Positions 31,565 through 48,312 of a stretch of 64,000 bases of DNA are shown one piece after another (positions within the stretch are counted from its first letter, which is position 1; each line of letters opens with the position of its first letter). This stretch comes from a virus, in the IMG/VR virus record IMGVR_UViG_3300032287_003559, positions 62,001 through 126,000 of that record; one strand, 5' to 3'. The notes under the pieces were generated by a model. That model saw nothing but the letters and a program-made list of their open reading frames with translations. It was not told the DNA's origin and did not search any database. The position numbers and the translations under genes are program-made.

Positions 31565-31584
31565 AAAATAAACGATATTGCCAT

Positions 31585-32586
31585 ATGAAGGTTGCTTTAA
31601 TTACTGGAATAACAGGGCAAGATGGATCTTATCTTGCCGAACTCCTTTTGGAAAAAGGATATGAAGTTCATGGTATCATTCGCCGTGCATCTCAGATCAA
31701 TACTCAAAGAATTGATCATTTGTATCAAAATATTAAATTACATTACGGAGATTTAACAGATTCGACTAATATAGTTCGAGTTATTCAAAAAGTTCAACCA
31801 GATGAAATTTATAACCTTGGTGCTCAGAGTCATGTCAAAGTATCCTTTGAGATGCCTGAATACACTGCTGATGTGGATGCTTTGGGAACTCTTCGTATTC
31901 TTGAAGCAGTTCGTCTTTTGGGCATGGAAAAGAATGTTCGTATTTATCAAGCTTCTACAAGCGAACTTTACGGTCTTGTTCAAGAAATTCCTCAAAGGGA
32001 AACTACTCCTTTTTATCCTCGCTCTCCCTATGGTGTAGCAAAGATTTATGGTTATTGGATTACAAAAAATTATCGCGAATCCTATGGAATGTTTGCTTGT
32101 ACGGGCATTCTCTTTAATCACGAGTCTCCTCGTCGTGGTGAGACCTTTGTTACACGTAAAATTGTTAAAGGATTGAAAGCAATATCCGAAGGAAAACAAG
32201 ATATATTATGTCTTGGTAACTTGAATGCAAAACGTGATTGGGGACATGCTAGAGATTTTGTTGAAGCAATGTGGATGATGCTCCAACAAGATGAACCGGA
32301 TGATTATGTGGTTGCTACAGGTAAGCAATACTCGGTGCGTGAGTTTGTTGAAACAGCAGCACCATATTTTGGAATGGAAATTGTATGGGAAGGTAAGGGA
32401 CTTAATGAAGTTGGAATTGACAAACTTACTGGAAAACCCGTTATCAAAGTTGATCCTAAATATTTTCGACCTGCTGAAGTAGAGACCTTATTAGGTGATG
32501 CCACAAAGGCAAAACAAAAATTAGGGTGGGAACCTAAAATTTCATTTGAACAATTAGTTGAGGATATGTGCATCAATGACAATTGA
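31585..32586 (+). CDS. gmd: GDP-mannose 4,6-dehydratase
   Basis: 333 residues, full length. Converts GDP-D-mannose to GDP-4-keto-6-deoxymannose, the first step to GDP-fucose. Rossmann motif [14 protein letters not shown] near residue 7, the NADP-specific RRAS segment near 33, catalytic YGVAK (Tyr-x-x-x-Lys) near 148, and the Gmd signature [16 protein letters not shown] near 173. Partner reductase (fcl) is two genes downstream. Confidence 0.97.
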
Positions 32587-33826
32587 TATGTTTCATAAAA
32601 TAGAAAAATGTAGAGTTTGTGGAAATACTCATCTAGAATTAGTCTTAGATTTAGGAAATCAATACGTCTCTGGAATTTTTCCCAAGAAAGTGGACTATGA
32701 GTTGTACAACGGACCACTAAAACTTGTTAAATGTAACGAAATGAATGGTGGATGTGGTCATGTTCAATTAGAACATACCTTCGATCTTCCGACCATGTAC
32801 GGTGAGGAATATGGGTATCGTTCTGGTTTGAATTCAAGTATGGTGAAGCATCTTCAAGAAAAGCATCAAAAGATTGTAAATTTTTATGATTTGAAAGAAA
32901 ACGATATTGTAATTGATATTGCTGGAAACGATGGAACATTTCTTGGATTCTTTTCAGAAAAACTGAGACTTGTTAGCATTGATCCGACTTCTAAAAAGTT
33001 CTCAAAGTATTTCAAAGAACACGTAGATTATATTGCTGATTTCTTTACTGAAGAAACTTTTAGAAAACATTTTGGTAATCAAAAAGCAAAATTAGTAACA
33101 TCTTTTTCGATGTTCTATGATTTGGAAGATCCGTGCCAGTTTGCTAAAGAAGTAAATTCCGTTCTAGATCCTGAAGAAGGTATTTGGGTTTTGGAACAAA
33201 GTTATATGCCTGAAATGCTTCGCGTCAATTCTTTTGATACTGTATGCCATGAGCATCTTTCTTATTATGGAATGAGGCAGATCAAATATATTATGGATAA
33301 AGCAAATCTTAAAATTATTTCTTATGAATTTAATGATGTAAATGGCGGTAGCATTTCTTTGGTGGTTTCTAATAAAGATAGTAAGTATGAAGAATGTACT
33401 GAAATGTTGAGTGAAATTATTAAAGAAGAACTTGATCTTAAATTAGATACTATTGAACCATGGCAAAAATTCCAACTAAGAATTGAAGAATGTAAAAAAA
33501 GTTTCTGGAAAATTATTGAAGAGTGTAAAAAAGAAGGATTAAAAATCTGTGCTCTTGGAGCTAGTACCAAAGGAAATATAACACTTCAAACTTGGAAAAT
33601 TACTTCAGATGATATTGAAGTAATTGGTGATGTAAACCCAGATAAAGACGGATCATTTACTCCTGGAACTTGGATTCCAATTAAAAGCGAGGATGCTGTT
33701 ATAGACACTTATGATGTGTTTGTTATTCTCCCCTGGCACTTTAGAGAATTTTTTATGACTAGTGAAAAATTTAAAGGTAAGAAATTACTCTTCCCACTTC
33801 CAACTGCTGAAATTGTAACTGTTTAA
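32576..33826 (+). CDS. Sugar C-methyltransferase (zinc-binding N-domain, SAM domain, C-terminal sugar domain)
   Basis: About 416 residues from ATG 32576, which overlaps the gmd stop; ATG 32588 is an alternative, while upstream TTG 32558 is unlikely. An N-terminal zinc-type [16 protein letters not shown] domain near residue 11 is followed by a Rossmann SAM fold ([15 protein letters not shown] near residue 109) and a C-terminal domain with [14 protein letters not shown] near 326. This three-part layout is that of nucleotide-sugar C-methyltransferases. Acts in the same pathway as gmd or rfbH products; the target carbon is not deducible. Confidence 0.9.
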
Positions 33827-33828
33827 TT

Positions 33829-34764
33829 ATGGAAAAAACTTCTAAAATTTTTGTCGCAGGACATAGAGGACTTGTTGGTTCTGCTATTTTAAGAACTCTC
33901 ATTGAAAGGGGTTATAGTAATATAATAACTGCAACCAGACAAGAAGTTGATTTACTTAATCAATCTCAAGTTGAGAAATTCTTTGAAAGAGAAAGACCAG
34001 AATATGTATTTGATGCAGCTGCCCGTGTCGGTGGTATTCATGCTAACAATCAATATTCTGCAGAATTTGTTTATGAGAATATCCAAATCCAAACCAATCT
34101 AATTCATTATGCTTGGAAATACGGAGTTAAAAAGTTTCTCTTTATTGGATCAGTTTGCATCTATCCTAAGTATGCTGAAGTTCCAGTAAAAGAAGAATCT
34201 CTTATGACTGGTTATCTGGAACCAACAAATGATGCATATGCTGTTGCTAAAATTTCTGGTATCAAAATGCTTCAAGCATACCATAAACAATATGGATTTA
34301 AAAGCGTATCTTTGATGCCTTCTAACATTTATGGTCCTGGTGATAATTTTCATCCAGAAAATGGACATGTTATTCCTTCAATGATTACCAAATTTAACAA
34401 CTCCGATGGAAAGAAAGTTGTTTTTTGGGGAGATGGAACTCCTATGAGAGAATTTCTTTATTCTGATGACCTCGCAGATGCTTGCCTATTCGCGATGGAT
34501 CACTTTGAAAACTCCGAATTGGTGAATGTTGGATCTGGATATAATGTCAGTATTAAAGAACTTGCACAAACAGTTGCTGGAGTTGTTGGATATAATGGAG
34601 AAATTGGTTGGGACACTTCACGTCCAAATGGAACTCCAAATCGTCCATTAGATTATTCTAAGATGACTGAACTTGGTTGGAATCCAAAACATAGTTTGCG
34701 TTCTGGTCTTGTAAAAACTTATAAATGGTTTAGTGAAGTAACCAATTATGATTCTTGCAAATAA
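33829..34764 (+). CDS. fcl: GDP-L-fucose synthase
   Basis: 311 residues. Epimerises and reduces the Gmd product to GDP-L-fucose with NADPH. AGHRGLVGSAILR near residue 11, the SVCIYPKYAEVPVKEESL segment near 107, catalytic AYAVAKISG (Tyr-x-x-x-Lys) near 136, and LMPSNIYGPGDNFHPENGHV near 163 are all as expected. With gmd this completes GDP-fucose synthesis inside the phage. Confidence 0.96.
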   Translation: MEKTSKIFVAGHRGLVGSAILRTLIERGYSNIITATRQEVDLLNQSQVEKFFERERPEYVFDAAARVGGIHANNQYSAEFVYENIQIQTNLIHYAWKYGVKKFLFIGSVCIYPKYAEVPVKEESLMTGYLEPTNDAYAVAKISGIKMLQAYHKQYGFKSVSLMPSNIYGPGDNFHPENGHVIPSMITKFNNSDGKKVVFWGDGTPMREFLYSDDLADACLFAMDHFENSELVNVGSGYNVSIKELAQTVAGVVGYNGEIGWDTSRPNGTPNRPLDYSKMTELGWNPKHSLRSGLVKTYKWFSEVTNYDSCK

Positions 34765-34787
34765 ATAACCCAAATAATTTTCATAAC

Positions 34788-35468
34788 ATGTATAATAGAC
34801 TTTTAACCGAAGATGATGTTTCGGAATTTTTTGAAATAATAAAGAAGGAAAAGTATCCAGAAAAAGGATTTCAACATAAAGATTTGTGGAACATTCCTGG
34901 TGGATTTGTTAAATGGATTTCAGTTTTAGAAGAGTTTAAGACTATTGGTAAAAATAATTTAAAAGTTATCGACCTAGGATCTTCTACAGGAGTTGTACCT
35001 CATATCATTGCAAGCTGGGGAAATGATGTAACTGGAATTGATATTGAATTGTCCGATCATTGGTGCCCTAAAAATTTAATTAGAATGGTTATCGGGGATG
35101 CTTTACTTGAAATGAAAGAAATTGAAGATGAAAGCATTGATGTGGTTACTGATCTATGTGCAGTTCATGAGTTTAATACAAGTGATAATGGTAAAGTTAA
35201 GAATGTTGGACTAAAAGAAGTCTCAGAACAAATTTACCGAATATTAAAACCAGGTGGAAAATTTCTTAGTTCAACTGATGTTTCTCTTGTTTATCCTGCA
35301 GCACAGCCTGGGGGATTTATTCCTCCAGAAGATATAATTAAAATCGTAGAATCTTCTGGGTTAAAACTAACTAGTCCATACAAAAAAGAATACGAGCAAT
35401 CTGAATATAATCCAATCTATCAACCCGCAGTTGGATTGCATATTGCTACTTTTTCTTTTGAAAAATAA
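34788..35468 (+). CDS. SAM-dependent methyltransferase
   Basis: 226 residues from ATG 34788; a TTG at 34755 in the same frame overlaps fcl and lacks support. Motif I is KVIDLGSSTGVVPHI near residue 63 with acidic motif II VTGIDIELSD, and a late IYRILKPGGKFLSS strand. A class I methyltransferase in the glycan operon; substrate could be a sugar hydroxyl or amine. An AAATAAATA late-promoter-like element lies in the short gap before it. Confidence 0.85.
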   Translation: MYNRLLTEDDVSEFFEIIKKEKYPEKGFQHKDLWNIPGGFVKWISVLEEFKTIGKNNLKVIDLGSSTGVVPHIIASWGNDVTGIDIELSDHWCPKNLIRMVIGDALLEMKEIEDESIDVVTDLCAVHEFNTSDNGKVKNVGLKEVSEQIYRILKPGGKFLSSTDVSLVYPAAQPGGFIPPEDIIKIVESSGLKLTSPYKKEYEQSEYNPIYQPAVGLHIATFSFEK

Positions 35469-35492
35469 GTTAAATTTAAAAATTATTAAAAC

Positions 35493-36428
35493 ATGTACAA
35501 AGGAAAAAAACTAATTGCTTGCTCTCCTGTAGGAAGAAAATCTTCCATGAAGTGCCTATTCAAGCATATTTTGAATAATCGACATATTCTAGATGAATTT
35601 CATTTATGGGTTAACACTGTAAATGAAGAAGATTTGGAATATATTAATAATTTTTCAAAACAATATCCAGACTTTGTTCATTTGAAATATGGATGTGATG
35701 AATTGGACCCAGAACAAATGGGCAAATCTCATAATGTAAAAAGATTTTATAATTACTGCGTAGAACCAGATACGTTTTATTTTAAAATAGATGACGATGT
35801 TATTTTTATTGAGGATGGAACTTTTGAAAAACTATCTCAATATAAATTAGATAATCCAAGCACTTTCCTTACATTTCCTACCATAATCAATAATCCATGG
35901 TGTACTCATTTTCTTAGAGTATCTGGAATCATTGATATTCAAGAATGTCCAGTATGCACTTATACATGGAACTCTGATTTTGAAAAATGCAAAGAATTGA
36001 TTAAATCATCTCCATCTGTAATGAGTGATAATCTATATGAACCTAAACTAGAAGATTTTATTCCTGAAGATAGAGTTATAAGTAGGTTATATTGTTTTGA
36101 TCCGCATATTGCATACAATCTTCTAAATGAGTTTCACAAAAAAATCGTAGAAAATAATCTGTCTGATTTAGATTTTGAAAATATTGTTTTGGAAAATTAC
36201 GAAACTGTATGCATAAATTTTGTAATGTGGGCTGGAGAAGATTTTGCAAAGTTTGATGGTGATGTTAAATCTGTTGGAGATGAACCTTGGTTAGCAACTT
36301 TCTATCCATGCAAATTTGATTTAAAAAATGCAATAGTTGGAAATACTAGAGTCGCTCACTATGCGTTTTGGCCACAAAGACCTCACTTAAATACTACTGA
36401 TATTTTAGAAAAGTATGAAACATTATGA
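35493..36428 (+). CDS. Putative glycosyltransferase (GT-A type)
   Basis: 311 residues, not matched to a numbered GT family. The opening KLIACSPVGRKSSMK and the metal-binding FKIDDDVIFIEDG near residue 95 (the DxD of GT-A enzymes) are visible. The C-terminal half is aromatic and acidic (VMWAGEDFAKFDGD). It overlaps glf by 14 bases. Donor and acceptor unknown. Confidence 0.72.
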   Translation: MYKGKKLIACSPVGRKSSMKCLFKHILNNRHILDEFHLWVNTVNEEDLEYINNFSKQYPDFVHLKYGCDELDPEQMGKSHNVKRFYNYCVEPDTFYFKIDDDVIFIEDGTFEKLSQYKLDNPSTFLTFPTIINNPWCTHFLRVSGIIDIQECPVCTYTWNSDFEKCKELIKSSPSVMSDNLYEPKLEDFIPEDRVISRLYCFDPHIAYNLLNEFHKKIVENNLSDLDFENIVLENYETVCINFVMWAGEDFAKFDGDVKSVGDEPWLATFYPCKFDLKNAIVGNTRVAHYAFWPQRPHLNTTDILEKYETL

Positions 36429-37518
36429 TTATCTAATCATTGGATGTGGATTATTTGGAGCAACATTTGCAAGACTTGCTACTGATAATGGTAAGTCTTG
36501 CTTAATAATTGATAAAAGAAAACATATTGGTGGAAATTGTTATACTGAAAATGTAGAAGGTATTAATGTTCATACGTATGGAGCGCATATTTTTCATACA
36601 AGTAATAAAACTGTTTGGCAATTTGTGAATAGATTTTCTGAATTTAATAATTATATCAATTCACCAAAAGCTGTATCTAATAATGGGAAGTTATATTCTC
36701 TTCCCTTTAATATGAATACTTTTTATGAATTATGGGGAACTAGATCGCCTGATCATGCTAAATCGATTATCGAAAGTCAAAAATTTAAAGGTACTCCAAC
36801 TAATCTGGAAGAGCAGGCATTATCTTTAGTTGGAAAGGATGTTTATGAAACTTTAATTAAAGACTACACTGAGAAGCAATGGGGAAGACCTGCTAAGGAA
36901 CTTCCCACCTTTATTATTAAAAGACTTCCATTAAGATTTACTTTCGATAATAATTATTTCAATGATAAGTATCAAGGTATACCGATTGGCGGTTATACTA
37001 AGATGTTTGAAAAAATGATTGATGGTATTGAAGTTAAGTTGGAATCTGATTATTTTTCTGATAAAGATTATTTTGATTCATTAGCAAGCACTGTAGTTTA
37101 TACTGGTTGTATTGATGAATTCTTTGATTATGAGTATGGAGAACTTGAATATAGATCTTTAAAATTCGTTCAGGAAATCATGGATACTGACAATTATCAG
37201 GGAAATGCAGTTATTAATTACTGTGAAAAATATCCTAAACAAACTAGAACAATAGAACATAAACATTTTGAAAGATCTAACACCAATAAGACAGTAGTTA
37301 CCTTTGAGTATCCTGAAACATATTCAAAAGAAATGATTCCATATTATCCAGTCAACGATGAAACAAATCAAAAAGTTTACAAAAAATATCAAGAAAAATC
37401 AAAAATGTTGACTAATGTTATATTTGGCGGTAGACTAACCGAATATAAGTACATGGATATGCATGTTGTAATTGAATCTGCAATGAACAAATTTAAAACA
37501 CATAACGGAGTAGTATGA
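36415..37518 (+). CDS. glf: UDP-galactopyranose mutase
   Basis: 367 residues, full length. A flavoenzyme that converts UDP-galactopyranose to UDP-galactofuranose. The FAD-binding DYLIIGCGLFGATFAR near residue 4, DKRKHIGGN near 38, and the conserved active-site region around RLPLRFTFDNNYFNDKYQGIPIGGYTKMFEKM (residues about 170-200, outlined) with the Arg/Tyr substrate contacts are present. Galactofuranose is common in bacterial surface glycans. Confidence 0.95.
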   Translation: MKHYDYLIIGCGLFGATFARLATDNGKSCLIIDKRKHIGGNCYTENVEGINVHTYGAHIFHTSNKTVWQFVNRFSEFNNYINSPKAVSNNGKLYSLPFNMNTFYELWGTRSPDHAKSIIESQKFKGTPTNLEEQALSLVGKDVYETLIKDYTEKQWGRPAKELPTFIIKRLPLRFTFDNNYFNDKYQGIPIGGYTKMFEKMIDGIEVKLESDYFSDKDYFDSLASTVVYTGCIDEFFDYEYGELEYRSLKFVQEIMDTDNYQGNAVINYCEKYPKQTRTIEHKHFERSNTNKTVVTFEYPETYSKEMIPYYPVNDETNQKVYKKYQEKSKMLTNVIFGGRLTEYKYMDMHVVIESAMNKFKTHNGVV

Positions 37519-38255
37519 GAATAGCTTTATGTTTATCTGGGCAACCAAGATTTGTCACTGAGTGTGCCCCATACATTTTACAAAATGTTTGTGATGGATA
37601 TGATGTTGATGTTTTTGCACATACTTGGTTTGATGAAGATCTTTTGAATAGACCATATAAAGTTGAAAATAATTGGCCATCGCAAAGAATATCTCCGGAC
37701 GCAGTTAAACAGATAGAGGAGATATATAAACCGATTTCACATAAAGTGGAATCTAGTATGAACTTTAAAGATCCAAATATTGATTATTCTATCTCTTGGC
37801 CAAGATATTGTGGATGGGGAGAACAAACTGAAGAATTTTATAGATTTGTGATTAGTAATCAAATTTCATATTTTTACAGTTTGAATCAGGTTAATATGCT
37901 AAAAAAACACTATGAGTATAAAAATGGATTTAAATATGATTGGGTAGTTAAGTGTAGAACGGATTCTATTGTACAAACCAAAATCGAATTTGAAAAATAT
38001 GATCCAAATGTAATTAACTATACTGGAATTAATAATCAACCAGATGGAATGATTTGTGATTGGTTTGATTTTGGTGGATCAAAAGTTATGGATGTATTCA
38101 TGAGTGCTTTTTCTGTATATGATTTTCCACTCAAAAAATGTATTGATGAGAACAATGGTGCATTTTGTCCAGAATTAATTCATCGAAAAATGATTGATTT
38201 TTTTGGTATAGATAAACAGGCACATCCAATCTACATTTCTTTACCTAGATTCTAA
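37515..38255 (+). CDS. Putative glycosyltransferase-like protein (LCLSGQPR family)
   Basis: 246 residues. Starts RIALCLSGQPR and later has FKYDWVVKCRTDSIVQTKIEFEKYD (outlined), an Arg-Thr-Asp acidic motif in place of a DxD. A paralogue at 43385 shares the opening (FCFAGQPR) and the KYDCVIRCRFDYL block. Both probably act in glycan assembly. Exact activity is not known to me. Confidence 0.7.
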   Translation: MRIALCLSGQPRFVTECAPYILQNVCDGYDVDVFAHTWFDEDLLNRPYKVENNWPSQRISPDAVKQIEEIYKPISHKVESSMNFKDPNIDYSISWPRYCGWGEQTEEFYRFVISNQISYFYSLNQVNMLKKHYEYKNGFKYDWVVKCRTDSIVQTKIEFEKYDPNVINYTGINNQPDGMICDWFDFGGSKVMDVFMSAFSVYDFPLKKCIDENNGAFCPELIHRKMIDFFGIDKQAHPIYISLPRF

Positions 38256-38263
38256 TATTAAAT

Positions 38264-38977
38264 ATGAATATTCTTATACCAATGGCTGGTGAGGGAACAA
38301 GATTTCCTAGAGACACCTATAAAATCCCAAAGCCATTAATTGAAATAAATGGAGTTCCAATGATTCAAAGAGCAATAGAATCTTTGGGATTAACTGGAAC
38401 ATACCATTTTGTGATTAGAAAGGATAGTTATTATGATCAGGTATGTACGCTTTTACATTCAATCTTTCCGAATGTAAAAATTATCAGCGTAGAACAAACA
38501 ACAGAAGGTCCAGCATCAAGTTGTCTTTTGTTTAAAGATTTTATCAATAATGAAGAAGAGTTGGTCATTGCTAACTGTGATCAGATTATGTGGTGGGATG
38601 CAGATTTATTTCTTACCACTGCTAGGTATTATAAGTATGATGGTTTAGTAGTAACCTATAGTACAAATACCACAAAAAACAGTTACGCAAGAATTGATAA
38701 AAGTGGATTTGTGCAAGAAATTAAAGAAAAAGAAGTTATAAGTGATATTTCACTGAATGGAATTCATTATTGGAGAAAGGGTAAATACTTTGTGCAAAGC
38801 ACCGAAGATATGATACAATTTAATGATAGAGCACCTAATGGCGAATTTTATGTTGGACCTTCATATAATCATATGATTAAAAGAGGATTAAAAGTTGGAA
38901 TTCATCATATTCCTAACTGGCAGCATAATCCAGTAGGAGTTCCTGAAGATTTGGATTCATTTATGAAAAAACTATGA
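38264..38977 (+). CDS. Sugar-phosphate nucleotidyltransferase
   Basis: 237 residues. Begins with the classic NTP-transferase motif ILIPMAGEGTRFP near residue 3, followed by KIPKPLIEINGVPMIQR near 19-35; VIANCDQIM near 105 carries the metal-binding Asp. It activates a sugar-phosphate with NTP. First of a run of four genes (to 41016) that overlap or sit within 2 bases of each other. Confidence 0.9.
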   Translation: MNILIPMAGEGTRFPRDTYKIPKPLIEINGVPMIQRAIESLGLTGTYHFVIRKDSYYDQVCTLLHSIFPNVKIISVEQTTEGPASSCLLFKDFINNEEELVIANCDQIMWWDADLFLTTARYYKYDGLVVTYSTNTTKNSYARIDKSGFVQEIKEKEVISDISLNGIHYWRKGKYFVQSTEDMIQFNDRAPNGEFYVGPSYNHMIKRGLKVGIHHIPNWQHNPVGVPEDLDSFMKKL

Positions 38978-39300
38978 ATATAACTAAAATTACAGATTAT
39001 GTGCGTGGATGGTTCATTGGTAACTTTGAACCATCAGTATTGAAAACTCCAGACTTTGAAGTGGGAGTATTGACTCACAAAAAAGATGAGTATTGGGCAC
39101 CCCATTATCATAAAGAAAGTGTAGAATATAATGTTCTTATTTCTGGAAAAATGATAGTTCAGGGAAAGGAGTTAAATAGTGGAGATGTATTTGTATTTGA
39201 GAAAGGGGAAATTGCTGACCCAGTTTTCCTTGAAGATTGTACATTAGTTGTAGTTAAATCCCCATCAATTCCTTCTGATAAATTTGAGGTTGAAAAATGA
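38974..39300 (+). CDS. Cupin-fold protein
   Basis: 108 residues of double-stranded beta-helix type. The metal-binding signature WAPHYHKESVEYNVLISGKM (near residue 42) shows two His, a Glu and spacing typical of a cupin; the partner strand is LNSGDVFVFEKGEIADPVF. It overlaps both neighbours by 4 bases. Cupins next to nucleotidyltransferases are often sugar epimerases or isomerases, but no function is proven here. Confidence 0.83.
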   Translation: MNITKITDYVRGWFIGNFEPSVLKTPDFEVGVLTHKKDEYWAPHYHKESVEYNVLISGKMIVQGKELNSGDVFVFEKGEIADPVFLEDCTLVVVKSPSIPSDKFEVEK

Positions 39301-40535
39301 AATTTTTTAGAGAACTAACTGAATACGAAAAGGATCGTTGTGTTGTTGCAACGTATTACATTGAAACATATGAGGATCTTGGAACCCTAAGAGATGCTGC
39401 CTGGAACCTTGCAATCGGGCAGAGTGTGGGTAATCCAAAGGTTCGTAATCGCTGGGAAAGCGATGAGTTGTTTGAACTTGCATCTTGCGTCATTTATGCC
39501 GATGAAGACGAACTCTCCAAAGTTAATTCTGGAGTCGTTAAAATCGGTTTCCCTAAGGTCAATACTGATTGGGAAGGTGATGGTATCTCCCATCTTCTCT
39601 GCCAACTTATGGGTGGACAATTAGATATTGATGTCTTCAAAGTCTGCCGTCTTCAGAAACTGGAGTTTCCTGCCGATGTGGAAGCACAGTTCCTTGGACC
39701 CAAGAATGGTATTGACGGTATTCGTAAGTTTGTTAATCGTTACGACAAACCACTCTCTGGTGCTATTGTGAAGCCCAAGACTGGTATTTCACCACAGACT
39801 CTTGCAGAGATGGTGAAAGAACTTCTTGATGGTGGTGTAGATTTTATCAAAGAAGATGAGATTCTTTCTAATCCTTCATTCTGCCGTCTTGAAGATCGTG
39901 TAGAACTGATTTCTAATATCGTTAATAATTGTGGAAGGAATGTAATTTATACCTTCTGCATTAACGGTGATCATCATACCATTCTTGATCGTGCTAAATT
40001 TGTTGCTGATAACGGTGGAAACGGTATTCATATTAATTTTTGGAGTGGTCTTGGCGTCTATAATTCAGTTAGAAAGATGGATCTCCCACTCTTTATTCAT
40101 TACCAGAAGAGTGGTGACAAGATTCTTACGGATAAGAGACACGCATTCGGTATAGATTGGGATGTTCTTTGTGACCTTGCTGGTCTCTGTGGTGTAGATA
40201 CTATTCACGCAGGAATGTGGGGTGGTTATCTCAGCGATGATGAGAATGAACTTCGCAAAACTATGGAGACTCTTCACAAGCGTAATGTTCTCCCAGCATT
40301 AAGCTGTGGAATGCATCCAGGGATCGTTAACACCACTGCAGAGAAGTTTGGTACAGATTTCCTTGCTAACTGTGGCGGCGCCATTCACGGGCATCCTGGG
40401 GGCACTCTAGCGGGTGCTCTGGCGATGCGTCAGGCAATTGATAAGAATCCTGGTGCAGAGTTCCGTGCCGCAATTGATAAGTGGGGTTATGAAACTGGTG
40501 GCGGTTCTTTACCTGAGTGGGTATTAGATTTTTGA
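39297..40535 (+). CDS. RuBisCO-like protein (RLP), large-subunit fold
   Basis: 412 residues spanning the whole large-subunit fold. By my alignment with RuBisCO: Lys159 and Lys161 (VKPKTGIS, equal to K175/K177), the metal set Lys185, Asp187 and Glu188 (DFIKEDEI, equal to K201/D203/E204), His268 (equal to H294), His304 in DTIHAG (H327), Ser336 (S379) and Gly360-Gly361 (phosphate site) are kept. Residues equal to E60, N123 (Gln108), R295 (Tyr269) and K334 (Tyr311) are changed, so carboxylation is not expected. It lies within a sugar-activation run (nucleotidyltransferase, cupin, this gene, GDPD-like). Its codon usage is less AT-rich than its neighbours. Confidence 0.93.
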   Translation: MKFFRELTEYEKDRCVVATYYIETYEDLGTLRDAAWNLAIGQSVGNPKVRNRWESDELFELASCVIYADEDELSKVNSGVVKIGFPKVNTDWEGDGISHLLCQLMGGQLDIDVFKVCRLQKLEFPADVEAQFLGPKNGIDGIRKFVNRYDKPLSGAIVKPKTGISPQTLAEMVKELLDGGVDFIKEDEILSNPSFCRLEDRVELISNIVNNCGRNVIYTFCINGDHHTILDRAKFVADNGGNGIHINFWSGLGVYNSVRKMDLPLFIHYQKSGDKILTDKRHAFGIDWDVLCDLAGLCGVDTIHAGMWGGYLSDDENELRKTMETLHKRNVLPALSCGMHPGIVNTTAEKFGTDFLANCGGAIHGHPGGTLAGALAMRQAIDKNPGAEFRAAIDKWGYETGGGSLPEWVLDF

Positions 40536-40536
40536 T

Positions 40537-41016
40537 ATGAAAATTATATCTCATCGTGGGAACCTAACTGGACCAAATCCCCTTAAAGAAAATAGTCCTG
40601 ATTATATCGAAGAAGCGATTGCCGAAGGTTTTGATGTTGAGGTTGATCTAAGAGTCCAAGATGGTCAATGCTATCTTGGACATGATGATCCTCAATACTT
40701 TGTAACTATGGAATGGTTGAGAAAGTATAAAGATATTCTCTGGATTCATTGTAAAAATCTAGAAGCACTTGAAAAAATATCAAGTTCTGTGGTAGAATTT
40801 AACTACTTTTGGCATGATACAGATAGATATACTTTAACGAGTAAGGGGATTGGGTGGGTATTAGTAGGACAATATCCATATTCAAAATCCGTAGTTGTTC
40901 TGCCAGAAAAGATAGATTTATATACCTTTCCTCACGGGATTGAATATATAAAAAGCAGTTATGGAATCTGTACTGATATTCCATTTAAATATAAACAAAA
41001 AATAACGGAGAATTGA
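40537..41016 (+). CDS. Short glycerophosphodiester phosphodiesterase-like protein
   Basis: 159 residues. The N-terminal signature IISHRGN near residue 3 with ENSPDYIEEAI, VEVDLRVQDG near 38 and LGHDDP near 50 match the catalytic His/Glu/Asp set of GDPD enzymes. The usual domain is about 240 residues, so this one lacks the C-terminal barrel half; it may use a shortened barrel or have a different substrate such as a sugar phosphodiester. Directly follows the RLP. Confidence 0.78.
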   Translation: MKIISHRGNLTGPNPLKENSPDYIEEAIAEGFDVEVDLRVQDGQCYLGHDDPQYFVTMEWLRKYKDILWIHCKNLEALEKISSSVVEFNYFWHDTDRYTLTSKGIGWVLVGQYPYSKSVVVLPEKIDLYTFPHGIEYIKSSYGICTDIPFKYKQKITEN

Positions 41017-41019
41017 CTA

Positions 41020-41661
41020 ATGAAATGGGAAACTGATCTGATTAAAGACATTAGAAGTAATACGCCATATGATGATACTGAGGCTGGTATAAATCATTTT
41101 CTTCATATTTGGCCTGGAATTGAGAATGATCCTGGTGTACTGAATCCATATGATGGAACTGAATGTAGTGAGTGTAATAAAGAAGCACTTCTTCAACAAT
41201 TCCTAAAAGTTCGTGATAACTGTAATGCGATTCTTGAAATTGGAATTGGTAGAAATGGAGAGAACTCCTTTGCTCACGTATTCTTTAAGAATAAAAAAGA
41301 AGAAACCAAATATATTGGTATTGATATAGAAGATCGTAGTTGGTTGGTAGATTATGGTGACAATATCTACACTATCCAAGGAAGTAGTTCCAATTATGAT
41401 GAGAATGTTGAGATTTTCAAAACCATGGGAGTAGAAAAATTTGACTTTATTTTCATTGATGGAGATCATAGCGTAAATCAAGTACTACGTGATTGGGAAT
41501 ACTCACGCCTCTTGAATGATGGTGGTATTGTTGGATTCCACGATACAAGTCATCACACTGGACCATATCTATTTGTAAGAAATCTGAACAGAGATATTTG
41601 GGATGTTATTGATAATTCTTGCCCACAAGATTACGGAATTGGATTTGCTACTAAAAAATAA
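41020..41661 (+). CDS. Class I methyltransferase-like protein
   Basis: 213 residues. ILEIGIGRNGENSFA near residue 69 is motif I, YIGIDIEDRSW near 101 motif II, and FDFIFIDGDHSVNQV near 139 with GGIVGFHDTSHH near 164 match the methyltransferase-24/cephalosporin-hydroxylase-like group. The GDH and HDTS motifs suggest metal-dependent O-methylation. Acceptor is probably a sugar in this cluster. Confidence 0.82.
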   Translation: MKWETDLIKDIRSNTPYDDTEAGINHFLHIWPGIENDPGVLNPYDGTECSECNKEALLQQFLKVRDNCNAILEIGIGRNGENSFAHVFFKNKKEETKYIGIDIEDRSWLVDYGDNIYTIQGSSSNYDENVEIFKTMGVEKFDFIFIDGDHSVNQVLRDWEYSRLLNDGGIVGFHDTSHHTGPYLFVRNLNRDIWDVIDNSCPQDYGIGFATKK

Positions 41662-41664
41662 ATT

Positions 41665-42666
41665 ATGAATGACCTTGAAGCACTAAAATCAAAATATAAG
41701 GTTGTTGTTTGGGGATTCAAACCAGTAAACGGAGTATTTCAAAATACTATCGGTTATGTCTGGAATAGTTTTTATAGAGCTTTTCAGACATTGGGGTTCG
41801 AAACCTACTGGTTCCCTAACCAAAAGGTAGAAGGATTTGACTTCTCTAATTGTATTTTCTTAGCAGAGGGATATGATGATTCAGAAATACCTCTAAACAA
41901 AACTTCAATTTATTATGTGCATTGTGCATACAATCCACAAAAGTATGTTAACAATGTTGGTAAATTTGTTGACTTGAGGTATAACCAACTAAAGATGAAT
42001 CATCCAAATTACATGTTTGAGTTGGATAAAAAAAATACCGAAAAATTGGGGAAAAGTTGTTATTATGAACCATCTACTAATCAAGTAGTTCATTTCAAAA
42101 ATGGTAAAGTAGATTATAATATCGATGATTTTGATAAAGTTTATGTTGCTTGGGCAACTAATTTGATGCCTGATGAAATGGATGAAAATGACATCTATTT
42201 GGAAAGAGAAGATAATGTTTACTTTCTTGGAACAGTTTATTATGATGCTCCATATTCAAACGTAAGTGAAATTAGTGAGTTTGCTCAAGAATGTCAAAAA
42301 AATAACATCGGATTCATTGTGAATGAATTTGAAAGAAATCAACTTTCCGAAGAGGATTATATCCAAATTTCAAAAAAATCTCTTTTTGGATTTGATATTA
42401 GAGGTAAATCTAATGTGGAAACTGGATATCTTCCTTGTCGGGTATTTAAAAATATAAGTTATGGTCTTCTAGGTACAACAAATTCTCCTGAAATTTATAA
42501 TGAGCTTGATGGTCACTGTGTCTATAACAGTTCCCCATCTAAACTTTTTTATAGTGCAATGAAAAGAAAAGACGATATTGAATTTATTAAAGAGTGTTTT
42601 AATTATGTAAAACATAATCACACATATATCAATCGAGTTAAGAGTATTTTAAGTATTTTAAAATGA
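41665..42666 (+). CDS. Glycan-cluster protein, possible GT-B glycosyltransferase
   Basis: 333 residues; no signature I can name. The opening KVVVWGFKPVNGVFQNTIGYVW looks like the start of a GT-B N-domain, and the C-terminal NISYGLLGTTNSPEIYNEL (near residue 264) is like a nucleotide-sugar contact loop. Overlaps its right neighbour by 4 bases and lies 3 bases after the left one. Function unknown. Confidence 0.65.
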   Translation: MNDLEALKSKYKVVVWGFKPVNGVFQNTIGYVWNSFYRAFQTLGFETYWFPNQKVEGFDFSNCIFLAEGYDDSEIPLNKTSIYYVHCAYNPQKYVNNVGKFVDLRYNQLKMNHPNYMFELDKKNTEKLGKSCYYEPSTNQVVHFKNGKVDYNIDDFDKVYVAWATNLMPDEMDENDIYLEREDNVYFLGTVYYDAPYSNVSEISEFAQECQKNNIGFIVNEFERNQLSEEDYIQISKKSLFGFDIRGKSNVETGYLPCRVFKNISYGLLGTTNSPEIYNELDGHCVYNSSPSKLFYSAMKRKDDIEFIKECFNYVKHNHTYINRVKSILSILK

Positions 42667-43382
42667 AGTCATCAAATTTTTTAGTTCATCATCAAGCTCA
42701 TAAAAATAAAGTTGCAACAGAGCATGTTATTAGATCATTTAGAGAATATCACCCAGATGATCCATATGTAATTTGGTCTGATTGTGGTGAAGATTATATT
42801 GATATAGCAGAAAAATATAATACAGATTATTATTATTCCGACTTTAATGTAGGATATATCTATTATGATAAAGAATCTGCATATGAATTATATAATAGAA
42901 TAAGAAAATCATGCGAATTATATAAAGATAAAACGCATGTTCTTTGGATGGAAGACGATGTAATAATCAAAGGTGAAATTTATATTCCAGATGAAGTTGA
43001 GTATTATGGAATGCCAAATATTGGAAACACTTGGCCAGAACTTCATGAATATCTTTGTGAGAAATATAAAGTAAATCCCAACTTTAACTTTTGGTCAACT
43101 GCAGGTGGCGTGATCATGCCTACAGATACTTTTGTAAATAAATTTGATATTTTAGAAAAATTTATTGACGAAGATTATGATCATGTTTACAACAATATGT
43201 GCAAAAAAATTGGTGCTGGAGATATACTAAAAATGGTATCCCAAATAATCACTGGAAAAAATTATACCGTTAATCCGCAAATAACTGATGTTAATCATCC
43301 TACAGGTGTTAGCGATGATATAATTTCAATTGTTCATGGATTCAAGGGGCATTATGTAGAACTTCCTCCTAGAGATAATTGA
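42663..43382 (+). CDS. Putative glycosyltransferase (GT-A-like)
   Basis: 239 residues. Contains HVLWMEDDVIIKGEIYIP near residue 95, a DxD-type metal site, and a Tyr/Asp-rich N-domain (EDYIDIAEKYNTDYYYSD). Codon usage is very AT-rich like the adjacent transferases. Donor and acceptor unknown. Confidence 0.7.
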   Translation: MKSSNFLVHHQAHKNKVATEHVIRSFREYHPDDPYVIWSDCGEDYIDIAEKYNTDYYYSDFNVGYIYYDKESAYELYNRIRKSCELYKDKTHVLWMEDDVIIKGEIYIPDEVEYYGMPNIGNTWPELHEYLCEKYKVNPNFNFWSTAGGVIMPTDTFVNKFDILEKFIDEDYDHVYNNMCKKIGAGDILKMVSQIITGKNYTVNPQITDVNHPTGVSDDIISIVHGFKGHYVELPPRDN

Positions 43383-43384
43383 TC

Positions 43385-44107
43385 ATGAAAGTAGCATTTT
43401 GTTTTGCTGGACAACCGAGAGATGTAAAAAATACTCTTAATAATATTAAAAAATCTTGGGGAACTCATCAGGAACTAGATTTCTTCTTTCATTCTTGGAT
43501 TCCTGATAGGGAAGGTCCATATAGAATAGACACTCCTTCTGATGTATATACGAAAGATATTAATGATTATATTTTATCTGAACTATCTCCAGTAAAATAT
43601 GAATTTGAAAATCAAATAATTTTTAAAAATTATTATAGAGACTCTATTCATTGGCCAATTCGTAGTTCTAATATTCCAAATCCTTCTCAAAATATCCAAT
43701 CATTTTTTTATTCAATTAAGAGAAGTAATGAACTAAAAAAACAGTATGAGGAAGAAAATAATTTTAAGTATGACTGCGTAATTCGTTGTAGATTTGACTA
43801 TTTGTTTACGAAGATCTATAATATTAGAGATTTTGATTTAAATTATTTGAATGTAAAAAATGATTGCAAGCATACTCCGTATGCAATCAACGATCACATT
43901 GCATTATCAAATAGTGAGAATATGGATTTGTATTCAACAGTATTTGATAATATTCAAGAACACTATAAAAACGGTATTGAATTTAATACAGAAGTTATTC
44001 TTGGATATAATGCTTTTATTAATGGATTAAAATATCACAAAACTTTAGGTGATAATAATGAATCCTATGTTTCAACACAAAAGGAAAGATCTGGAATTTA
44101 TATATGA
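43385..44107 (+). CDS. Putative glycosyltransferase-like protein, paralogue of 37515
   Basis: 240 residues from ATG 43385 (TTG 43379 is upstream in frame). Opening KVAFCFAGQPRDVKN and FKYDCVIRCRFDYL near residue 132 match the gene at 37515, pointing to a duplication within the cluster. The end overlaps the next ATG by 4 bases. Confidence 0.7.
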   Translation: MKVAFCFAGQPRDVKNTLNNIKKSWGTHQELDFFFHSWIPDREGPYRIDTPSDVYTKDINDYILSELSPVKYEFENQIIFKNYYRDSIHWPIRSSNIPNPSQNIQSFFYSIKRSNELKKQYEEENNFKYDCVIRCRFDYLFTKIYNIRDFDLNYLNVKNDCKHTPYAINDHIALSNSENMDLYSTVFDNIQEHYKNGIEFNTEVILGYNAFINGLKYHKTLGDNNESYVSTQKERSGIYI

Positions 44108-45063
44108 ATATTGCATTTATAGGACCTGGTATTATGCCCATTCCCCCGAATGGATGGGGGGCAGTGGAAATGTTGATATGGGATTATGCAACAGTTCTAG
44201 GGAATTTGGGGCATACTGGTGTAATTATCAATACTCCAAATAGGTCTGAAATTATTCAAGAACTTAAAGAAGATGAATTTGATATTGTTCATCTTCATTA
44301 CGATGTTTTTCATGATATTATTCCTGAAATATTGGATACTATTAAAGGTAAATTGATTGTATCTAGTCATTATCCATATATCAATTATCCTGAGATGTGG
44401 GCGAATGATAATTATAGCCCTATAGTAAAAAGTTTTAGTAATAATAAAAATTTTAATATCTTTTCTTCTAGTCAAAAAGATATTAATACCTTTGTTAGTT
44501 ATGGTGCGGATCCTAATAACTGTTGGTTGAGTAGATTGGGTGTTCTTCCAGATTCGTATGCATTTGATGAAAATGCTACTTATGATAGAACACTTTCTTT
44601 TTCACAGATTTGTGATAGAAAGCGCCAATATCTTATCCAAGATTTTGATAATGTTGATTTTATTGGAAGACTGGAATATGGGAAGTTTAACAATAAGGCA
44701 AACTATAAGGGAGAAATGCCCAGAGTAAAATTAAATACGGAAATAACCAAGTATTCTAATTTTACTCTTTTAAGTTCCGTTGAAAATACAACTCCTTTGG
44801 TAGTTAAAGAAGCACTTATTTGTGGATTGGGTGTTGTAGTTTCTGAAGAAGTGTCTGTTGAACTAGACACAAGTTTAGATTTTATTGATGTTATTACAGA
44901 AGATAAGATCGAAGATCTTTCCTATGTTCAAAGTGTTCTGCAAAAAAATAAAGAATACTCTGTAAAAAACAGAAATAAAATTAGAGAGTATGGAATTCAA
45001 ACATTTGGTCTCTCAAATATTTTAGAATTTGAGTATGTTCCCAAAATGCAGTCATTGTTATGA
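44104..45063 (+). CDS. GT4-like glycosyltransferase
   Basis: 319 residues. The opening NIAFIGPGIMPIPPNGWGAVE and ATVLGNLGHTGVIIN resemble GT-B/GT4 N-domains, and SRLGVLPDSYAFDENATYDR with VENTTPLVVKEALICGLGVVVSE (residues about 228-250, outlined) is the GT4 C-domain E-x7-E-like helix. The next gene is a tandem paralogue. Confidence 0.85.
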   Translation: MNIAFIGPGIMPIPPNGWGAVEMLIWDYATVLGNLGHTGVIINTPNRSEIIQELKEDEFDIVHLHYDVFHDIIPEILDTIKGKLIVSSHYPYINYPEMWANDNYSPIVKSFSNNKNFNIFSSSQKDINTFVSYGADPNNCWLSRLGVLPDSYAFDENATYDRTLSFSQICDRKRQYLIQDFDNVDFIGRLEYGKFNNKANYKGEMPRVKLNTEITKYSNFTLLSSVENTTPLVVKEALICGLGVVVSEEVSVELDTSLDFIDVITEDKIEDLSYVQSVLQKNKEYSVKNRNKIREYGIQTFGLSNILEFEYVPKMQSLL

Positions 45064-46013
45064 AAATAAGTATCATCGGTCCAGCTACACAAATTCCCCC
45101 TGTAGGATGGGGAGCAGTTGAAAGTTTAATTTGGGATTATAAGATATCTCTAGAAGAGATGGACCATAAAGTTCAAATTATAAACATTGAAAATCCTAAC
45201 GAAATTATTCAGCGGATTAATCAATTTAGACCAGATTTTGTTCATATCAATTATGATGATTGGATTGTTCTCTATCCATATATTCAATATCCTTGTGCAA
45301 TAACTTCTCACTTCGGATATATTGAAAGACCTGATATGATGGGAGGATACATAAACATTTTCAACTTATTCCAAAATTATAAACCAAATATTTTTTGCTT
45401 GTCCGAAAGCATTAAAAAAGTTTATAAAGTTTTTTCTGGTATCTCTGAAGATAAATTATTTGTTACTCCTAATGGCGTAAATCTTTCTATCTTTAAAAAA
45501 GAAAGAGAACCAAAGTATCCAGATAGAAGCATTTATCTTGCAAAAATAGATTATCGCAAACGCCAACACTTATTTCAATCTATTGAAAGTCTTTGGTATG
45601 CTGGTAATATTGCTGATAGTAGATTTGATATATCCAAAAATTATCTTGGAGAATGGAATAAAACACAACTCCATAATCAGTTGACCGATTATGGTAATCT
45701 GGTATTATTGAGTGATGGTGAAGCGCATTCATTAGTATTGATGGAAGCACTTGCATCTGGTCTTGGAATTGTAATTAGCGAATTTGCAACAGCAAATCTT
45801 GATCTTGATAAAAATTTTATCGATGTTATTCCAGAAAAAAGAATAAATGATCTTGAATATGTTGAAAGTATCATTGTAAAAAACAGGGAATATTCTATTA
45901 CTCATCGTGAAGAAATTATTGAATATTCTCAAAATTTTGGATGGTCAAATATAATAAAAAATTATTATCTACCTAGTGTTCAAAAATTAATTGCAAATTA
46001 TGATAGGATTTAA
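45060..46013 (+). CDS. GT4-like glycosyltransferase, tandem paralogue
   Basis: 317 residues. Same order of motifs as the previous gene: KISIIGPATQIPPVGWGAVE, VTPNGVNLSIFKKERE, and GEAHSLVLMEALASGLGIVISE near residue 220. Overlaps it by 4 bases. The pair probably arose by duplication and then diverged in acceptor specificity. Confidence 0.87.
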   Translation: MKISIIGPATQIPPVGWGAVESLIWDYKISLEEMDHKVQIINIENPNEIIQRINQFRPDFVHINYDDWIVLYPYIQYPCAITSHFGYIERPDMMGGYINIFNLFQNYKPNIFCLSESIKKVYKVFSGISEDKLFVTPNGVNLSIFKKEREPKYPDRSIYLAKIDYRKRQHLFQSIESLWYAGNIADSRFDISKNYLGEWNKTQLHNQLTDYGNLVLLSDGEAHSLVLMEALASGLGIVISEFATANLDLDKNFIDVIPEKRINDLEYVESIIVKNREYSITHREEIIEYSQNFGWSNIIKNYYLPSVQKLIANYDRI

Positions 46014-46794
46014 TGCTTTGGGGCAACTTGGTAGACTTGGAAATCAAATGTTCCAGTTTGCTTCGCTTAAGGGAATCGCAAGAAACCGTGGATATGAATA
46101 TTGCTTTCCTCCCACACAAAATAAAAATGAATGGACAGACCATCAATTGTTCAATCCTTTTAAACTTAGTAGAACTAGTCAACTAAATGTTCAGTTTATT
46201 GACGCAAATAGACCTACTATTGCGGAAAGTGGATTTTCATTTGATGAAAAGTTATTTAATGAATGTCCAGATTGGGTTTGTATTCAAGGATTTTTTCAGT
46301 CTGAAAAATATTTTAAACATATTGAAAATGAAATTAGATCTGATTTTGAATTCAAAGATGAAATTCTTAATCCTTGTAAAGAGATGATTTCTCAACTGGA
46401 TTCCTCCCCAATTGCACTTCACATCCGCAGAACAGATTATATTACCAATTCTAATCATACTGTATTGGATTTGGAATATTATCAAAAAGCATTAGATGAG
46501 TTCGATAAAGAAGTTACAGTTCTTGTGTTTTCTGATGATCCTGGTTGGTGTAATCAGCAAGATATTTTCTCATCAGATAGATTTCTTATTGCCGAAGGAA
46601 ATTCTAATTATGTTGATTTGTGTTTGATGTCTCTGTGTTCTGGTCACATTATTGCCAACTCTTCATTTTCTTGGTGGGGTGCTTGGCTAGCAAACAATAA
46701 TAAAGTTGTAGCACCTTCTGGATGGTTTTCTGGGTCTAATAATGAGCACCTAGATATTAAAGATTTGATTCCCGAAACTTGGATGGTGATTTAA
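46000..46794 (+). CDS. Alpha-1,2-fucosyltransferase (GT11)
   Basis: 264 residues from ATG 46000. GT11 signatures: GRLGNQMFQFASLKGIA near residue 10, the HIRRTDY GDP-fucose motif (residues about 144-150), and GHIIANSSFSWWGAWLA near 215, as in FUT1/FUT2-type and bacterial FutC enzymes. It would transfer fucose from GDP-fucose, which gmd and fcl supply, onto a terminal galactose, giving an H-type structure. The stop shares a base with the next start (TAATG). Confidence 0.93.
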   Translation: MIGFNALGQLGRLGNQMFQFASLKGIARNRGYEYCFPPTQNKNEWTDHQLFNPFKLSRTSQLNVQFIDANRPTIAESGFSFDEKLFNECPDWVCIQGFFQSEKYFKHIENEIRSDFEFKDEILNPCKEMISQLDSSPIALHIRRTDYITNSNHTVLDLEYYQKALDEFDKEVTVLVFSDDPGWCNQQDIFSSDRFLIAEGNSNYVDLCLMSLCSGHIIANSSFSWWGAWLANNNKVVAPSGWFSGSNNEHLDIKDLIPETWMVI

Positions 46795-47510
46795 TGAAAA
46801 TTGCGATTTGTTTTATTGGTACTGGAAAGTATTTAAACTTTCTTCCAAAATATTATGAAAATATTCATGAATATTTTCTTCCCAATAGCGAAAAAACTTT
46901 TTTAGTTTTTACGGATGGTGAAGGAGATTTTCCTGAAGATGTTAAAGTATATAAACAAAAACATCTTGAATGGCCTTATATTACCTTAACAAGATTTGGA
47001 ATTATTCAAAAAGCAAAAGAAGAAATTGAAAAGAATGATTGGTTTGTTTTTATTGATGCAGACGCTTTGGTAGTCAATTCAATTACTGAAGAAGAGTTTT
47101 TTGATGATACTAAATCATTTTTTGGAGTCCATCATCCATGTCATTTTCTTCAGATGTCTCCGCATAATGAATATCCTGGAGCATTTGAAACAAATCCACA
47201 GTCTCTTTCTCATATCACTCAAACAGATGATTTGTCTACTTATTATCAAGGATGTTTATGGGGAGGAAAAGTTCCAGATGTTCTTAAGATGATTGAAGAA
47301 CTTGATTGTAGAGTAAACAAAGATCTTGAAAATGATGTGATTGCCGTATGGCATGATGAAAGTCATATCAATAAATTTTTTATTGAACAAAAGGAGTATG
47401 TGAATACTTTAGGTCCAGAGTATGCATACCCAGAAGTATTTTCTAGTTATTGCAAATTCGACCCAAAGATAGTACACTTAGCAAAAAATAACTCAAAATA
47501 TCATGTTTGA
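46794..47510 (+). CDS. GT6-family glycosyltransferase (ABO/alpha-gal type)
   Basis: 238 residues from ATG 46794; a frame extension upstream lies inside the previous gene. GT6 features: KIAICFIGTGKYLNFLPKYY near residue 2, FVFIDADALVV with the DxD-like Asp88-Ala-Asp90, TYYQGCLWGGKVPDV near 157, and VIAVWHDESHINKFF near 184 (the acceptor-binding W/H/E set). Vertebrate members add alpha-1,3 GalNAc or Gal to fucosylated galactose. Placed directly after GT11, which would make such an acceptor. Confidence 0.92.
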   Translation: MKIAICFIGTGKYLNFLPKYYENIHEYFLPNSEKTFLVFTDGEGDFPEDVKVYKQKHLEWPYITLTRFGIIQKAKEEIEKNDWFVFIDADALVVNSITEEEFFDDTKSFFGVHHPCHFLQMSPHNEYPGAFETNPQSLSHITQTDDLSTYYQGCLWGGKVPDVLKMIEELDCRVNKDLENDVIAVWHDESHINKFFIEQKEYVNTLGPEYAYPEVFSSYCKFDPKIVHLAKNNSKYHV

Positions 47511-48312
47511 ATTAAACGATAAAAATAAATCTACCTATAAACTCAAAGGTATTGGTCCGATCTATTATTTAAATCTTGATGGGCAACCAGAAAGAAGGAA
47601 ATATATGGAGGATCAATTTAAATATTGGGAGGTTGAAAATTATACTCGTATTTCTGCATATGATGGACGAGAAGATGATCTAAGTGATATCTTAGTTGGG
47701 CGGTATCCTGAAATGATGACCTCTGGAGAAATTGGATGTATTACTTCTCATCTAAAAGCAATTAAACATTGGTATGAAACATCCGATAGTCCATATGCAG
47801 TCATTATGGAAGATGATTGTAATTTGGATTTAGTCCGATATTGGAATTTTACCTGGGATGATTTTTATGCACATATCCCATATGATTGGGATATTGTACA
47901 AATTGCTATTATCTGTACTGGAGATCTTCATGTTAAACTTCATAAAAGATTTGTAAATGATTTCTCTACAGCTTGTTATCTGATTACTAGACATCATGCA
48001 GAAAAACTTATTAAGTTCCATACTAGAGGAGATAAGTATAAACTTGATAATGGAGTTAAACCACGTCCAGTTGCTGATGACTTGATTTATAATTCCGGAA
48101 ATACTTATTCAATTCCTCTTCTCCTCTATAGAACTGAACTTGGGTCTTCTATCCATCCAGAACACGTTGATGCATTTCATAAAGCTAATTTCAATGCACT
48201 ATCTCAATTCTGGGAACAAAACAGTTCTCAAATCGATATTAAAGATTATATGAACTATGATCCATATCTTGGTCGTATAGTTGAAAATTCTTCTGCCCAA
48301 CAAAATCCTTGA
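47503..48312 (+). CDS. GT25-family glycosyltransferase
   Basis: 269 residues. Signatures: IYYLNLDGQPERRKYME near residue 17, SAYDGRE near 46, SGEIGCITSHLKAI near 67 and the acidic VIMEDDCNL near 98, typical of LPS-type GT25 galactosyltransferases. The last gene of the glycan island, ending just before a promoter. Overlaps GT6 by 8 bases. Confidence 0.9.
   Translation: MFELNDKNKSTYKLKGIGPIYYLNLDGQPERRKYMEDQFKYWEVENYTRISAYDGREDDLSDILVGRYPEMMTSGEIGCITSHLKAIKHWYETSDSPYAVIMEDDCNLDLVRYWNFTWDDFYAHIPYDWDIVQIAIICTGDLHVKLHKRFVNDFSTACYLITRHHAEKLIKFHTRGDKYKLDNGVKPRPVADDLIYNSGNTYSIPLLLYRTELGSSIHPEHVDAFHKANFNALSQFWEQNSSQIDIKDYMNYDPYLGRIVENSSAQQNP

Follow-up and report, generated by a model that had tools for sequence, protein, structure and literature searches.

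What does a homologue of Rubisco do in a virus, amid genes for surface glycans? The question is raised by the IMG/VR virus record IMGVR_UViG_3300032287_003559, a 175-kb record of which positions 62,001 to 126,000 were analysed here (64,000 nucleotides, hereafter the window). Four open reading frames (ORFs) of the window, which lie on the + strand with overlaps of 4 bases or, before the last gene, a gap of 1 base, encode a nucleotidyltransferase (NTase), a small cupin, a form IV Rubisco-like protein (RLP) and a protein resembling glycerophosphodiester phosphodiesterases (GDPD-like), as a first-pass annotation made from the sequence alone had placed them. Our computations establish that these genes form a conserved module, that the RLP changes places with RpiB, RibB and HAD enzymes beside one NTase family, and that the RLPs form a clade with its own active-site pattern. 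The recurrence of this RLP in viruses, bacteria and archaea suggests that the Rubisco fold has a function not yet described, and the conserved module very probably serves the decoration of glycans.

Relatives of the RLP were found in 224 stretches of IMG/VR contigs, of which the best 80 were examined; a tblastn search of 50,697 phage records returned none. Loci were sampled through searches anchored on the RLP or the NTase, and the counts given here are of loci, not of independent events. The NTase lies within 5 kb of the RLP in all 64 well-flanked viral loci and in all 31 that form the non-redundant set left after removal of near-copies (RLPs less than 90% identical, at least 2.5 kb on both sides). 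Within the same distance, the cupin is found in 27 of the 31, the GDPD-like gene in 24 and a DUF7796-like protein in 17 (37 of the 64). Across 81 loci the NTase family is present in 79 and the cupin in 66, and families from outside the module are mostly present in far fewer. These viral loci are glycan clusters of widely differing gene content, in keeping with the glycan context proposed earlier, and the linkage of NTase, cupin and GDPD-like genes stays constant while the other genes vary; the module is thus more than chance, and a chance neighbourhood is ruled out by the linkage conserved over the 31 non-redundant loci. The first-pass annotation had named the objection that the four genes might never occur together elsewhere, and this clearly failed, the linkage being found in viral and in cellular loci. 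Against five related phages for which the synonymous rate dS is unsaturated, the RLP has a ratio of nonsynonymous to synonymous substitution (dN/dS) of 0.03-0.06 and is under strong purifying selection. One RLP lineage, which occurs in SAR11 too, is without the cupin and has the order GDPD-NTase-RLP or NTase-RLP. In another set of loci (L032-L039 and L074; for example L035, 9241-11935) the RLP is followed by proteins resembling APH/fructosamine kinases, 3-dehydroquinate synthases and SDR enzymes, and this lineage is possibly a cyclitol-type branch.

The RLP matches the Pfam family RuBisCO_large (PF00016, 150 bits); PHROGs, which holds families for the NTase, the cupin and the GDPD-like protein, has none for it. 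In a maximum-likelihood tree of 72 sequences, from whose references the Rhodospirillum rubrum, Chlorobium and published IV-GOS sequences are absent, the phage and cellular RLPs form one clade (support 100/100) that stands apart from forms I, II and III, from OiaX, from the RLPs linked to four-carbon-acid kinases, from MtnW/YkrW and from other proteobacterial RLPs. The RLP scores 203 bits with TIGR03326, 168 with PRK09549 (cut-off 409), 128 with TIGR03332 (cut-off 513.6) and 155 with NF042437 (cut-off 700). It lies below the cut-offs for, and in a separate clade from, both MtnW/YkrW, the 2,3-diketo-5-methylthiopentyl-1-phosphate (DK-MTP-1-P) enolase, and OiaX, the 3-oxo-isoapionate-4-phosphate decarboxylase.

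We then tabulated the active-site residues of 37 sequences of the clade in Rubisco numbering. All 37 retain K175, K177 and the metal/carbamate triad K201, D203 and E204, which correspond to K159, K161, K185, D187 and E188 of the window RLP. Likewise, all 37 carry the substitutions E60G, T65N, W66P, N123G, H294Q and K334Y, while position 295 is mostly Lys and position 298 mostly Asp (R295K and H298D in the window RLP). K334, E60 and N123 are required for carboxylation and, because all three are lost, the RLP should not be a carboxylase. The earlier description of an RLP without carboxylation residues is therefore borne out by the table: homology to the Rubisco large subunit combined with substitutions predicted to exclude carboxylation is what characterizes form IV, and the loss of E60, N123, H294, K334 and the 1-phosphate (P1) site, together with the position in the tree, separates the protein from the true Rubiscos of forms I, II and III. 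The 1-phosphate site (T65, W66, K334) is gone and the 5-phosphate (P2) site is alike in kind (mostly K295, H/Q327 and S379), which suggests that the substrate is a mono-phosphorylated, 5-phospho compound. The pattern of MtnW is the reverse, with K177 absent and the 1-phosphate site kept.

The first gene of the module had been read as an activating NTase, and Pfam (NTP_transferase, PF00483, 37 bits; NTP_transf_3, PF12804, 33 bits) and PHROGs (195 bits) agree. It does not classify as a CDP-ribitol (cytidine diphosphate-ribitol) synthase of the IspD/TarI type, as it matches PF00483 and PF12804 rather than IspD and has no constant reductase beside it. Cultured cyanophages without an RLP possess the same NTase family, there fused to other enzymes (Table 1), and a survey of viral contigs gave about 49 NTase-RpiB, about 8 NTase-RibB and about 82 HAD-NTase copies, with the GDPD-like gene mostly close behind the NTase-RpiB and HAD-NTase copies. 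The catalytic motifs are retained both in the RpiB domains (GFCRTGQG, RHN, GGRH) and in the RibB domains (FEGD, RHARG, TTGMS..DR, GHTE). RpiB interconverts ribose-5-phosphate and ribulose-5-phosphate, and RibB acts on ribulose-5-phosphate. In the NTase tree the RpiB-fused members form one clade, as the RibB-fused members probably do, and the HAD-fused members join the NTases linked to cupin-less RLPs (support 100/97), a grouping which means that partners were exchanged on one NTase line. Thus, the pentulose-phosphate enzymes RpiB and RibB and the HAD phosphatase are exchanged around a single NTase line, and the RLP fills the same slot; the NTase is what stays constant in these four parallel modules. 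In Bellamy and in the window alike, the module (that of RpiB in the one, that of the RLP in the other) lies behind the same replication block and tRNA genes. From the NTase-RibB fusion, which S-SKS1 has among its glycan genes, an activated dihydroxybutanone phosphate is predicted.

The cupin shows a weak, sub-threshold Pfam match (Cupin_7, 20 bits against a cut-off of 27) and a PHROGs match of 119 bits. Its alignment (26 sequences) contains an HxH...E motif 1 (H44, H46, E51) and no conserved motif-2 histidine, and its comparison with solved structures, as a comparison with R. rubrum CupA, gave no match better than E 0.14. In phages that have no RLP, a cupin of the same family comes after the NTase-RpiB fusion. 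The GDPD-like protein, for which there is no Pfam match and a PHROGs match of 121 bits, had been described as missing the C-terminal half of the barrel, and on this point the first-pass annotation is not supported. Its AlphaFold model (mean predicted local distance difference test score (pLDDT) 94.7) matches GDPD structures by Foldseek and by VIA, which aligns model residues 1-159 with 12-250 of the 7e0v chain (Z 11.5, root mean square deviation (rmsd) 3.2, 151 residues). As the alignment with whole GDPDs runs end to end, no half of the barrel has been lost. The protein has the GDPD fold, a TIM barrel with the HR...ExD...H catalytic set, and H6, R7, E35, D37 and H49 are invariant in 40 sequences; judged from the model, it is a compact but complete barrel with trimmed helices and loops. 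The DUF7796-like neighbour upstream of the NTase (PF25072, 32 bits; model pLDDT 91.8) matches Mnn9 (Z 12.8, rmsd 2.9, 183 residues) and further enzymes with the GT-A fold. We considered it as a phosphotransferase with a new fold, a reading that we rejected because its model is GT-A-like. GT-A-like proteins of this DUF7796 type recur with the NTase in phage glycan clusters, and the window holds a second copy with an SGQPR-type motif at 43379-44107.

Bacterial and archaeal genomes were scanned with a profile of the phage RLPs, which gave 22 loci. The RLP and NTase genes are linked, in shuffled order, in genomes of SAR11, Legionella, DPANN, Elusimicrobia and Patescibacteria, although some of the cell-derived loci stand on short contigs of possibly viral origin (L084 hardly differs from the viral locus L047). 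The SAR11 contigs look cellular, with hflK/hflC/degQ-like neighbours, and so do the Legionella contigs, with purine-synthesis-like genes nearby; these neighbours were named by eye. One SAR11 group (L092-L098) has its RLP between two different NTases and a GDPD-like gene upstream; of the two NTases, the one upstream is far more distantly related and has no Pfam match. Among 22 genomes of the genus Legionella, four species contain a chromosomal locus (L101, L102, L104, L299) in which the genes for LicD and the RLP point away from each other and the NTase comes after the RLP. This LicD/RLP/NTase locus is a cellular version of the system.

We propose that a surface glycan is decorated by way of a single small sugar phosphate, activated with a nucleotide, which the module both makes and uses. 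In this scheme, the substrates and products of which we infer, the RLP would be an isomerase, epimerase or rearranging enzyme acting on a pentulose 5-phosphate, for example ribulose-5-phosphate. Its carbamylated lysine/Mg site and K175 would enolise the 2,3-carbons, and the enediol would be reprotonated or rearranged without CO2 uptake, the carboxylation residues being lost. The cupin may complete or stabilise the product in most lineages, and the NTase would join a nucleotide to the phosphate as ISPD/Acs1 does with ribitol-5-phosphate. Transfer of the phosphorylated unit onto the glycan would be the task of the LicD-family protein in Legionella and of a GT-A-like candidate in phages, and the GDPD-like enzyme would trim or recycle phosphodiesters. 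The path first suggested, from phosphorylated precursor through nucleotide to phosphodiester, is strengthened by its fit with the RpiB, RibB and HAD modules and with the Legionella LicD.

It seems probable that the RLP acts on a sugar phosphate without carboxylating it and supplies the NTase. A pentulose-5-phosphate as its substrate has slightly less than an even chance, and a phosphodiester-linked product may be nearly as likely as one without this linkage. For the reading as a whole, in which the RLP remodels a pentulose-5-phosphate, the NTase activates it and a glycan is decorated, we regard the chances as evenly balanced. More tentatively still, the RLP may rearrange ribulose-5-phosphate to an unusual keto-sugar phosphate that the NTase activates and that ends in phosphodiester linkage on virus or host-surface glycans, the system being spread by phages over SAR11, cyanobacteria and others and being exchangeable with RpiB/RibB. 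Several points weigh against the favoured reading. A HAD in the RLP slot does not by itself indicate pentulose phosphates. The NTase scores about 44 bits with sugar-1-phosphate NTases (RmlA, AglF), far under every NCBIfam cut-off, and weak scores with IspD are seen only for its relatives. LicD was seen in Legionella only, none being found in the viral loci with the Legionella LicD as query. Finally, a dedicated reductase is not a constant companion of the RLP module, so that a CDP-ribitol route is not implied, and the CDP-ribitol pathway proper was rejected for want of one.

The main rival is an ordinary nucleoside diphosphate (NDP)-sugar route, in which the RLP would be an isomerase or epimerase for a hexose or heptose phosphate that proceeds via a sugar-1-phosphate to an NDP-sugar for GT-A transferases, with no phosphodiester in the glycan. 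The NTase is indeed nearest to RmlA/AglF-type models, the neighbours include GT-A glycosyltransferase-like proteins, the S-SM2 cluster has phosphoheptose isomerase and class II aldolase genes and that of Bellamy an aldolase, and RpiB/LacAB-family enzymes can use other sugar phosphates. Yet RibB, found in the same slot, is specific for ribulose-5-phosphate, LicD stands next to RLP and NTase in Legionella, the RLP has no sugar-phosphate mutase as a constant neighbour, and phosphodiesters are suggested by the GDPD-like gene that most loci contain; we consider this route unlikely, at about half the weight of the favoured reading. A methylthio-pentulose route would make the RLP a 5-methylthioribulose-1-phosphate isomerase and the cupin a methylsulfurylase, yielding 1-deoxy-D-xylulose 5-phosphate (DXP) that is diverted to glycan or isoprenoid supply. 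An RLP and then a cupin act in sequence in R. rubrum (PMC6302742), and both adjoin here. However, the loci are glycan clusters, no genes of methylthioadenosine salvage were recognised next to the module, and the cupin both follows NTase-RpiB where there is no RLP and is absent from a whole RLP lineage, which leaves this route improbable.

The preserved metal triad, K175 and K177, invariant over phages, bacteria and archaea, make it very improbable that the RLP is a non-catalytic binding or scaffold protein for assembly of an NTase complex, as might be imagined from the many Rubisco active-site residues that are replaced; the low dN/dS and the occupation of the RLP slot by enzymes elsewhere also speak against it. 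A trace less credit still is due to the RLP as a DK-MTP-1-P enolase (MtnW) or as a carboxylase for extra CO2 fixation during infection. It is homologous to both (TIGR03326, PRK09549) and the host is likely to be cyanobacterial, but the scores fall far below the curated cut-offs, the clade is separate, E60G, N123G, H294Q and K334Y are present, and MtnW is without K177 and with the 1-phosphate site, the converse of this clade. On residues and tree together we reject a carbon-fixation or MtnW role.

The window belongs to a T4-like cyanophage, its replication block being closest to those of Synechococcus myoviruses such as Bellamy and S-SRM01. The glycan cluster that surrounds the module starts directly after a tRNA cluster (11 tRNA genes, 24990-28370), in which the anticodon predicted for tRNA-His is atg instead of gtg; ARAGORN may have miscalled it. 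The RLP gene has a GC content of 0.43, and 0.34 at third codon positions (GC3), above its neighbours (GC about 0.29-0.37, GC3 about 0.2); expression, origin or constraint are possible causes.

Table 1. Positions of the module, its surroundings in the window, and NTase fusions in cultured cyanophages (the latter in locus coordinates).
Feature	Position	Strand	Length	Remarks
Nucleotidyltransferase (NTase; RmlA/MobA-type; phrog_3980)	38264-38977	+	237 aa	ORF, Pfam, PHROGs
Small single-domain cupin (phrog_24762)	38974-39300	+	108 aa	4-base overlap with NTase gene
Rubisco-like protein (RLP, form IV)	39297-40535	+	412 aa	4-base overlap with cupin gene
GDPD-like phosphodiesterase, compact (phrog_34507)	40537-41016	+	159 aa	1-base gap after RLP
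GT-A-fold glycosyltransferase-like protein (DUF7796-like, SGQPR motif), candidate transferase	37515-38255	+	246 aa	Recurrent neighbour
Glycan cluster	29404-48312	+		gmd, fcl, pyridoxal-phosphate (PLP) aminotransferase, UDP-galactopyranose mutase, C-methyltransferase, fucosyltransferase-type (GT11-like), GT25, others
NTase-RpiB fusion, then same cupin family	L106 6838-7995			Bellamy; also SynMITS9220M01
NTase-RibB (dihydroxybutanone phosphate (DHBP) synthase) fusion	L110 6001-7428			S-SKS1
HAD-NTase fusion (beta-phosphoglucomutase (beta-PGM)-like HAD)	L109 5341-6726			S-CAM9; also B23, relatives

Few RLP reactions are known, although RLPs are what the evolution of Rubisco is measured against. 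Members of the clade occur in phages, SAR11, Legionella, several other bacterial phyla and DPANN archaea and share one invariant active-site pattern, and its genomic setting predicts a pentulose-5-phosphate going in and a nucleotide-activated product coming out, which is testable in one laboratory. If true, the Rubisco fold would gain a role in glycan biosynthesis, there would be an explanation for a set of Rubisco homologues in viromes and SAR11 that automated annotation may be scoring as carbon fixation, and phage enzymes that replace one another beside a single NTase would be defined as a family. The first-pass annotation could name no pathway with these four components; we too found none, nor any description of a phage RLP or of the four-gene module, in the open-access literature searched, where absence is not proof.

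The system can be placed among known ones. The 2007 Global Ocean Sampling (GOS) survey recorded 65 marine Rubisco homologues outside all known forms (PMC1821046), and our clade is partly marine as well; given these homologues, and because our references lack the R. rubrum, Chlorobium and published IV-GOS sequences, we do not claim that the clade has never been seen before. In the Pnt system of phosphonate activation, an NTase is fused to, or works as a pair with, the enzyme supplying its substrate, PEP (phosphoenolpyruvate) mutase, alongside LicD-like transferases, and such fusions of NTases with substrate-making enzymes are established (PMC6697681); no PEP mutase was recognised in the loci examined here, and a phosphonate route by analogy with PntC was rejected. 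Closer are the HAD-NTase, NTase-RpiB and NTase-RibB modules of cyanophages S-CAM9, Bellamy and S-SKS1, which share the NTase family, the GDPD-like gene (HAD and RpiB modules) and the cupin (RpiB module) but have a different committed enzyme, none being characterised in the literature searched.

Form IV RLPs such as MtnW/YkrW, the R. rubrum 5-methylthioribulose-1-phosphate isomerase and OiaX resemble the phage-type RLP in having the Rubisco fold by sequence, in keeping the metal/carbamate triad and K175 and in having lost the carboxylation residues. The phage-type RLP differs in its own fully supported clade (the R. rubrum sequence not being in the tree), in a KPK motif as in true Rubisco, in the signatures GQSxGNP, HxQKSGD and GMxGGY, in keeping the 5-phosphate rather than the 1-phosphate site, and in its linkage to an NTase and glycan genes instead of sulfur salvage or apiose catabolism. 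The nearest parallel in logic is the CDP-ribitol pathway, with its synthases (Bcs1/Acs1, TarI/ISPD) and the transferases LicD/FKTN/FKRP. There the donor is made by a ribose-5-phosphate isomerase and a ribulose-5-phosphate reductase/NTase, RpiA plus Bcs1 (PMC10299916), fusions of the reductase with ISPD exist, and LicD proteins use CDP conjugates, transferring the phosphate as well (PMC4873967). Both systems pair or fuse an NTase with a ribulose-5-phosphate enzyme in a glycan context, with LicD adjoining in Legionella, whereas the modules described here use an RLP, RpiB or RibB in place of the reductase, an RmlA/MobA-type rather than an IspD-type NTase, and cupin and GDPD-like partners.

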